DNA from: Candidatus Gracilibacteria bacterium
Lineage (GTDB): Bacteria; Patescibacteriota; Gracilibacteria; BD1-5; UBA6164
Direction: 5' to 3'
Assembly: GCA_010119145.1 (NCBI GenBank)
Contig: JAACSU010000007.1
Coordinates: forward strand, 577,869-641,868
Length of the DNA stretch: 64,000 bases
Shown: positions 13,985 through 41,840 of the stretch, piece by piece
Position numbering within the stretch: the first letter of the stretch is position 1
How the letters are laid out: each line of letters starts with the position of its first letter
Program-made: the position numbers and the translations under genes
The notes under the pieces: generated by a model
Database searches by the model: none
What the model was told of the DNA's origin: nothing
The model's input: only the letters and a program-made list of their open reading frames with translations

Positions 13985-14067
13985 TTGTCTAGATTTTTGA
14001 ATTAGCTTCACATTTATCAAAAAATTTCTATACTTATAGAGATTTTTTTATTATTTAAAACTGAACT

Positions 14068-14105
14068 TGCAGCTTCTTTCCCTTGAAAAGGGAGAGAATT
14101 CAAGA
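14068..14105. repeat. solo copy of the DUF559-flanking palindromic repeat
   Basis: TGCAGCTTCTTTCCCTT, a short loop, AAGGGAGAGAATTCAAG. This matches, with few changes, the right-hand inverted repeat of the DUF559 unit (41625-41674). It lies directly upstream of nrnA, and its purine-rich end may serve as that gene's ribosome binding site. Confidence 0.65.
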
Positions 14106-14112
14106 GAGAGTT

Positions 14113-40710: not shown

Positions 40711-40716
40711 GTATAT

Positions 40717-40777
40717 GTCCGAAAAGACATAAAACTAGATTCCTTTCCTGTAAGCCTAAAGGAAAGGGGCTACAATT
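40717..40777 (+). repeat. palindromic repeat copy upstream of tRNA-Ser
   Basis: Two linked elements. The first, ATGTC/GACAT-type hairpin (40715-40730, text GTCCGAAAAGACATAAAACT), recurs at 41791-41810. The second (40739-40777) has arms CCTTT/AAAGG and ends GGGGCTACAATT; it matches the left-hand repeat of the DUF559 unit. Confidence 0.6.
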
Positions 40778-40783
40778 GATTTT

Positions 40784-40874
40784 GGAAGGGTGGCTGAGTG
40801 GTTGAAAGCGCACGCCTGGAAAGTGTGTAAACGGTATACCCGTTTCGCGAGTTCGAATCTCGTCCCTTCCTCCA
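40784..40874 (+). tRNA. tRNA-Ser (anticodon GGA)
   Basis: A 91-nt class II tRNA: acceptor GGAAGGG/CCCTTCC, anticodon loop CTGGAAA (anticodon GGA, codons UCC/UCU), long variable arm (GTAAACGGTATACCCGTTTCGC region), T-loop TTCGAAT and an encoded CCA end. The last 20 bp are repeated at 40920-40939. Confidence 0.93.
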
Positions 40875-40939
40875 TACATACAAAACTAGGACGTGATGAG
40901 AAGTTTATGCCCTTGGGTAAATCTCGTCCCTTCCTCCAT
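40856..40939 (+). repeat. direct repeat of the tRNA-Ser 3' end
   Basis: The 20 bp AATCTCGTCCCTTCCTCCAT occur at 40856-40875 (end of the tRNA) and again, unchanged, at 40920-40939, 44 bp later. A duplicated tRNA 3' end is what attachment-site recombination leaves; no integrase is present between the copies, so this may be a scar or an empty site. Confidence 0.7.
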
Positions 40940-41194: not shown

Positions 41195-41247
41195 ATTCCT
41201 CACTTGAATTCTCTCCTTTTAGACAAAAGGAAAGAGGCTGCATAATT
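41195..41247. repeat. left inverted repeat of the DUF559 unit
   Basis: About 50 bp. It reads ATTCCT, 3 other bases, TTGAATTCT, one base, TCCTTT, a short loop, AAAGGAAAGAGGCTGCA and AATT. The reverse complement of 41625-41674 has the same blocks in the same order, differing only in the short spacers and one added TA. Confidence 0.8.
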
Positions 41248-41267
41248 TGTTCTTGAATAATATAAAC

Positions 41268-41645
41268 ATGATAGTACCTGATATTATAAAACAAGCTGCG
41301 AGAGATTTACGTAAGAACATGACTCCAGCTGAAAAAAATTTATGGGAATATATAAAATCTTGAAAGTTAGAGTGAAAAAACTTTTTGAAACAAAAACCTA
41401 TATTTATGTTTGAAGAAGATTCCTGATTTCCTTGATATGTAATTGCTGATTTTATTTGTCTTGAATATAAACTCATTATAGAGATAGATGGGAATATTCA
41501 CTATACTCCTGAAGTATTAGAACTTGATTTATATAAACAAGAAATGTTACTTGAAAAATGATTTACAGTATTACGATTTAGAAATGAAGAAATACTAAAT
41601 AATATTGATAAAGTTTTGAGTAAAATTGCAGCCTCTTTCCTTTAG
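41268..41645 (+). CDS. DUF559 endonuclease-like protein
   Basis: A 125-residue protein of the DUF559 family (restriction-endonuclease-like fold, similar to very-short-patch repair and TnsA-type nucleases). MTPAEKNLWEYIKSGKLEG (about 18-36) is the family's N-terminal signature. The nuclease core PGYVIADFICLEYKLIIEIDGNIHYTPE (about 54-82) gives the D...ExD/K-type catalytic set (D62 and the EIDG acid), followed by LEKGFTVLRFRNEEIL. The stop codon lies inside the right inverted repeat. The gene is tightly enclosed between repeats 41195-41247 and 41625-41674, as in a small mobile unit. Role: nuclease of a selfish or mobile cassette (inference). Confidence 0.88.
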
Positions 41646-41674
41646 ACTTAAAGGAAAGAATTCAAGATAGGAAT
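41625..41674. repeat. right inverted repeat of the DUF559 unit
   Basis: Mirror of 41195-41247: AATT-type end, TGCAGCCTCTTTCCTTT, loop, AAAGGAAAGAATTCAA and AGGAAT. It overlaps the last codons of the DUF559 gene. Each repeat is itself a hairpin (TCCTTT/AAAGGA). Confidence 0.8.
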
Positions 41675-41682
41675 GGTGTAAT

Positions 41683-41810
41683 ATTCCTCACCTGAATCCT
41701 CTGCTACGCTTTAACTTCAGAATAGTTGTTACACTCCTTTCTTCGCTTATCCTTTTTTACAAAAGGAAAGGGGCTACACAGAGAGAGTTAGTCCGAAACG
41801 ACATAAAACT
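41683..41810 (+). repeat. further diverged copy of the palindromic repeat
   Basis: Begins ATTCCTCACCTGAATCCTC like the left repeat of the DUF559 unit, then about 47 bp of unrelated sequence, then TATCCTTTTTTACAAAAGGAAAGGGGCTACA, again matching the left repeat. It ends with GTCCGAAACGACATAAAACT (41791-41810), also seen at 40717-40736. It may be the deletion remnant of another unit. Confidence 0.6.
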
Positions 41811-41840
41811 AAAATATTTTAAGTTAATTTTATAAATAAG

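Follow-up and report, generated by a model that had tools for sequence, protein, structure and literature searches.

DUF559 is a common protein family "of unknown function", and, to our knowledge, many REP-type palindromes have no known mobiliser. The EDxHD homing endonuclease I-Bth0305I is intron-encoded and has an extended DNA-binding region. The closest known kind of system to the one described here is the REPtron, which consists of a RAYT plus REPs (Di Nocera et al. 2013, PMC3733652). Rickettsia palindromic elements (RPEs) are palindromes located in protein genes with the frame kept, as cited in that same paper, and Caulobacter VsrA, the one studied DUF559 protein found in the open-access literature searched, was read as a mismatch-repair enzyme (PMC12907096).

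The stretch of DNA analysed here (64,000 nucleotides, hereafter the window) belongs to a genome that decodes TGA as Gly, as long genes are open under table 25. It contains a DUF559 gene between two inverted arms of 48 nt each, which are 88% complementary and spaced 384 nt apart (Table 1). This enclosure by inverted repeats, proposed in the first-pass annotation, was confirmed by an inverted-flank score of 58; 1,009 placements of the same geometry in the rest of the window reached 31 at most. Under table 25 (TGA=Gly) a single ORF lies between the arms; its TAG stop (41643-41645) falls in the right arm, as also described in the first-pass annotation, and its last codons are read from the arm as well. 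The arms are hairpins with a covarying stem. Among 14 distinct arms, taken from the window and from five loci of congeners, the stem of 9 bp was paired in 95% of cells and four pairs were altered on both sides; paired cells, double-changed cells and the covariation score all exceeded 500 of 500 shuffles and all slid controls.

Table 1. Coordinates of the DUF559 unit and of related solo repeats in the window.
Feature	Position	Strand	Details
Left arm	41195..41242	+	REP-like palindrome; inverted repeat I1; outer tail ATTCCTCACTTGAATT, stem 41211-41219 with 41226-41234, inner tail AGGCTGCA; stem covariation in 14 distinct arms of the genus
DUF559 gene, 125 aa, TGA = Gly	41268..41645	+	ATG start, TTG 41247 alternative, TAG stop
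Right arm (left arm inverted)	41627..41674	-	inverted repeat I1; stem 41650-41658 with 41635-41643
Solo arm-family copy, direct orientation	41683..41780	+	direct repeats D3, D4; outer part 41683-41705, hairpin 41746-41780, extra sequence between
Solo copy of the arm's hairpin part, upstream of tRNA-Ser	40739..40776	+	
Solo arm copy, 27 kb from the unit	14067..14112	-	

The repeats had been taken as the ends of a unit. They do enclose the gene, but they are not unique to it: pattern, DNA, protein and covariance-model searches of the genome found solo arm copies both in the window and elsewhere, with nine matches altogether for the covariance model. The same genome has exactly one DUF559 gene. 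Two further repeats were observed in the surroundings of the unit. The 3′ end of tRNA-Ser (CTCGTCCCTTCCTCCAT) recurs about 46 bp downstream (40858-40938), in some congeners too, and resembles an old duplication, partial or of the att type. Next to the DUF559 repeats, at 40714-40740 and 41788-41813, lies another small palindromic repeat, of the GTCCGAAACGACATAAAACTAA type, again with counterparts in congeners.

The protein encoded in the window matched Pfam DUF559 with E=1.9e-28, and its AlphaFold model reached a pLDDT of 93.4. The structure closest to this model was 3hrl, followed by I-Bth0305I (PDB 3r3p; Z 11.1, 2.4 Å over 91 residues), a likeness also found by sequence, and then by Vsr (Z 9.5). 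The model thus gives a confident Vsr fold; of the two kinships suggested earlier, with Vsr and with TnsA, the latter is the more distant fold match (Z 7.0). The residues E22, D61, E72-x-D74-G, H78 and D87 (window numbering) are conserved. Judging by Pfam and structure, which both point to DUF559 and the Vsr fold, the predicted product is not an HUH tyrosine transposase (RAYT). Vsr and Caulobacter VsrA share the fold and the DUF559 domain, but they are known as resident repair genes and not as genes of palindrome-ended elements. A role as a defence system was rejected, as PADLOC returned no match.

PF04480 was found in 60 of 99 relatives. Matched inverted flanks accompanied 75% of the 95 DUF559 genes in relatives vs 2.8% of 177 other ORFs of 80-200 aa from the same loci, and over 117 loci the inverted-flank score had a median of 45 for a gene's own partner arms vs 21 when flanks of different loci were paired. 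Scanning 84,980 species genomes yielded 80 DUF559 loci in Pseudomonadota, Bacteroidota, Cyanobacteria, Chloroflexota, Planctomycetes, Acidobacteria, Myxococcota, Spirochaetes, Clostridia and others, and 65% of these passed the inverted-flank test vs 1.4% of shifted controls. The majority of arms across phyla were like CCTCACCCTAACCCTCTCC..GGAGAGGG or TTCCCCTCC..GGAGGGGTG. Repeats are therefore present around most DUF559 genes elsewhere, a point on which the first-pass interpretation depended, while matched arms are missing at about one quarter of the loci.

Between genomes, arms were more alike the more identical their nucleases were (Mantel 0.20, exceeding each of 500 permutations), and units within one genome were no more similar than units from different genomes. 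Arm sequence, by these comparisons, follows the nuclease lineage and not the genome, and because of this the arms seem to travel together with the gene. Repeats of the window type occurred in 19 of the 25 genomes with DUF559 and in none of the nine without; considering only DUF559 of the window's clade, the numbers were 17 of 19 genomes with it vs 2 of 15 without (Fisher 1e-5, uncorrected for phylogeny). Such a match between repeat type and nuclease clade is a pattern known for REPs and RAYTs (PMC3733652). In E. coli K-12, the DUF559 gene ycjD (L298 802-1155), located between sapF and fabI, adjoins a CCCTCTCC..GGAGAGGGTTAGGGTGAGGG palindrome of the same kind, and ycjD is present in 3,365 of 5,426 E. 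coli genomes (62%). Strains lacking ycjD were rejected as a clean empty site, as those examined have an efflux operon there. Acinetobacter loci, with nested palindromes, yielded no empty site either because they represent one shared locus.

Within the genus, units are located near ileS in genomes G000, G004 and G006, at another locus in G002 and G007, and at a third in G005. The G006 unit may be a separate arrival, since it is not the sister of the G000 and G004 units on the tree. The gap orthologous to the G005 locus is empty in G001, G003, G006 and G000, and the one orthologous to the G002 locus is empty in G006. Empty-site alleles, on which the idea of a mobile unit had also been made to depend, thus exist for other copies, namely at these two loci and in a recG loop described below. 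Upstream of ileS, the interval in G002, G003, G007 and G008 is too diverged and was rejected as a source of an exact empty site for the window copy.

A relative, G036, harbours at least nine units of 570-600 bp that are 88-99% identical and possess 23-bp terminal inverted repeats starting with GGC (ends GGCATAATCTAAATTTTGGTGGA). Target-site duplications, suggested earlier as a further sign of mobility, were found here: both ends could be read in seven copies, and the duplication is a perfect 8 bp in five of them and 7 of 8 bp in one, while none was visible (by eye) at the window unit, nor at its congeners. The extra outer terminal repeat is likewise absent from the window unit and congeners. 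With it, the G036 version looks like a product of DDE transposition, and judging from its ends such units may also be carried in this way. It resembles DDE MITEs and mobile insertion cassettes in its terminal inverted repeats and 8-bp target duplications, but no transposase partner was seen between a pair of these ends in G036, where many of the ends lie at contig breaks, and the window version is without those ends. A 144-bp MITE in G036 (L169, G036:C28, approximately 1501-1644) has the terminal repeats of the DUF559 units and one inner hairpin but no gene; it is probably a deletion derivative of a DUF559 unit.

DUF559 domains are also found inside conserved genes. About 32 of 123 lie in ORFs that are open for at least 150 codons on both sides, and Pfam detected split halves of RecG, RecQ, PriA, IleS, LeuS, MiaB, MnmA, TsaD, RsmB, MgsA and others on either side of the domain; in other phyla, halves of HsdR, MetG and RecG flank it. 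In trees of the domain (approximately 110 columns, with soft deep forks), all 21 DUF559 of one well-supported clade are intragenic, with host genes intermixed among sisters, such as LeuS with RecG (100/88) or PriA with RecG (100/94). As this mixing shows, the intragenic domain has moved from gene to gene. An in-frame stop occurs in none of these 21, and an ATG precedes the domain in five; of the 27 domains in the clade of the window, by contrast, an ATG is present in 26 and a stop in 18. The target duplications in the relative, together with the host-gene hopping on the tree, strongly support that the DUF559-unit family is mobile. The mobile nuclease cassette proposed from the window alone is thus partly supported: family mobility is well founded, whereas an exact empty site for the window copy was not found and we infer that the nuclease drives the movement.

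The recG gene offers several states of such an insertion. Its loop between the Walker A helix and APTEIL is uninterrupted in seven relatives and in the window's own genome. The recG genes of G003 and G041 carry the full arrangement of hairpin, DUF559 and hairpin in frame, and recG of G011 has an in-frame inverted hairpin pair alone, without DUF559; the G011 arms differ in type from those of the full G041 allele. At a second RecG loop (after DEQHRFGV), DUF559 units were observed in L137 (G056) and L222 (a betaproteobacterium), i.e., in very distant phyla; a shared target or a tolerant loop are both possible. In the Bacteroidota loci L261, L248, L258 and L237, DUF559 is preceded by translated palindromes (SPPLEGWLKAGVV repeats) arrayed in tandem and in frame, and the downstream half is HsdR-like in L258, L261 and L228. 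Other insertions were found in IleS of G056 (Ser_hydrolase and His_Phos, L136) and in LeuS of G014 (NUDIX, L092). These have no flanking palindromes and were rejected as cargo of the same system, there being no matched repeats.

A homing gene borne by an intron or intein was also rejected, since Rfam at gathering cut-offs found no self-splicing intron around the gene and the Pfam tables contained no intein domain. I-Bth0305I is similar in its catalytic fold, in the conserved E, D, H, D order and in its insertion in conserved genes, but the DUF559 units have no intron (Rfam) and no extra domain, and they have hairpin arms. The in-frame palindromes inside protein genes recall RPEs; these, however, are palindromes alone in what PMC3733652 says of them, whereas in DUF559 units the palindromes enclose the coding sequence of an entire nuclease domain.

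We consider it somewhat likely that the unit is a small mobile element whose ends are two inverted REP-like hairpins and whose single gene encodes a nuclease of the Vsr/EDxHD type, with the nuclease acting in its movement. The DUF559 nuclease would recognise either the hairpins at the unit's ends or a conserved target and nick or cut there, after which break repair or strand transfer would copy the unit in. The solo hairpins dispersed elsewhere would then be by-products or incomplete copies, comparable to REPs in RAYT REPtrons. Within the intragenic lineage, copies that lack stops and keep the host frame would be retained by selection, so that the nuclease would be produced solely as a domain of the host protein. 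As in REPtrons, one gene is flanked by inverted palindromic repeats and solo repeats are dispersed, some of them inside genes; solo repeats abundant where the gene occurs are a feature of REPtrons that is found for the window-type repeats, too. Unlike REPtrons, which carry an HUH tyrosine transposase, DUF559 units carry a Vsr-fold nuclease, and one DUF559 clade inserts whole and in frame into conserved genes. The reading of Caulobacter VsrA as a mismatch-repair enzyme was counted against nuclease-driven movement, as were the absence of a visible target duplication at the window unit and its congeners, the DDE-like outer repeat that accompanies the clean 8-bp duplications in G036, and the roughly one quarter of DUF559 loci with no matched arms.

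Alternatively, DUF559 could be the cargo of a non-autonomous MITE or mobile insertion cassette that is moved by a DDE transposase in trans, making the nuclease dispensable for movement. This model is kept alive by the G036 ends, which combine 23-bp terminal inverted repeats starting with GGC and 8-bp target duplications, and a gene-less 144-bp relative exists in the same genome. We regard this explanation as rather unlikely, however, considering that the window unit and its congeners lack the outer terminal repeat, that a transposase between a pair of these ends was not seen in G036, although several of them coincide with contig breaks, and that the recurrence of one nuclease family between palindromes over many phyla would be left unexplained. 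It appears improbable, too, that the hairpins are an independent REP family whose inverted pairs, already in place, serve as the target into which the nuclease gene homes by break repair, instead of being its own ends. The arms-only inverted pair in recG of G011, the commonness of solo arms and the relatedness of the nuclease to I-Bth0305I would fit such homing, whereas the tracking of nuclease lineage rather than genome by the arm sequence and the different arm types of G011 and the full G041 allele argue against it, and the empty recG alleles of congeners suggest full insertions with arms at previously repeat-free sites.

That the hairpins are ordinary terminators or REPs with DUF559 as a resident repair nuclease among them, and hence nothing moves as a unit, is very improbable and already contradicted by the controls. 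The arms are indeed hairpins and intergenic in the window, and REPs are often located downstream of genes (PMC3733652), but matched arms are absent from other small ORFs of the same loci, in-frame hairpins within coding regions are not terminators, and empty alleles, target duplications and host-gene hopping all speak against immobility.

Returning to movement by the nuclease, the element family is widespread and apparently undescribed; in the open-access literature searched, no description of a DUF559 version of a REPtron-like element was found. We tentatively suggest, at somewhat less than even confidence, that these elements may form a separate class of autonomous, transposase-free nuclease-palindrome units in more than 12 bacterial phyla; the Vsr-fold nuclease of such a unit would mobilise the hairpins at its ends and seed genomes with REP-like repeats, and one lineage would exist as an in-frame, unspliced domain in essential proteins. 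If the nuclease drives these units, this would provide a function for the DUF559 family and an origin for a large class of bacterial repeats, and it would point to an intein-like way of life without splicing.
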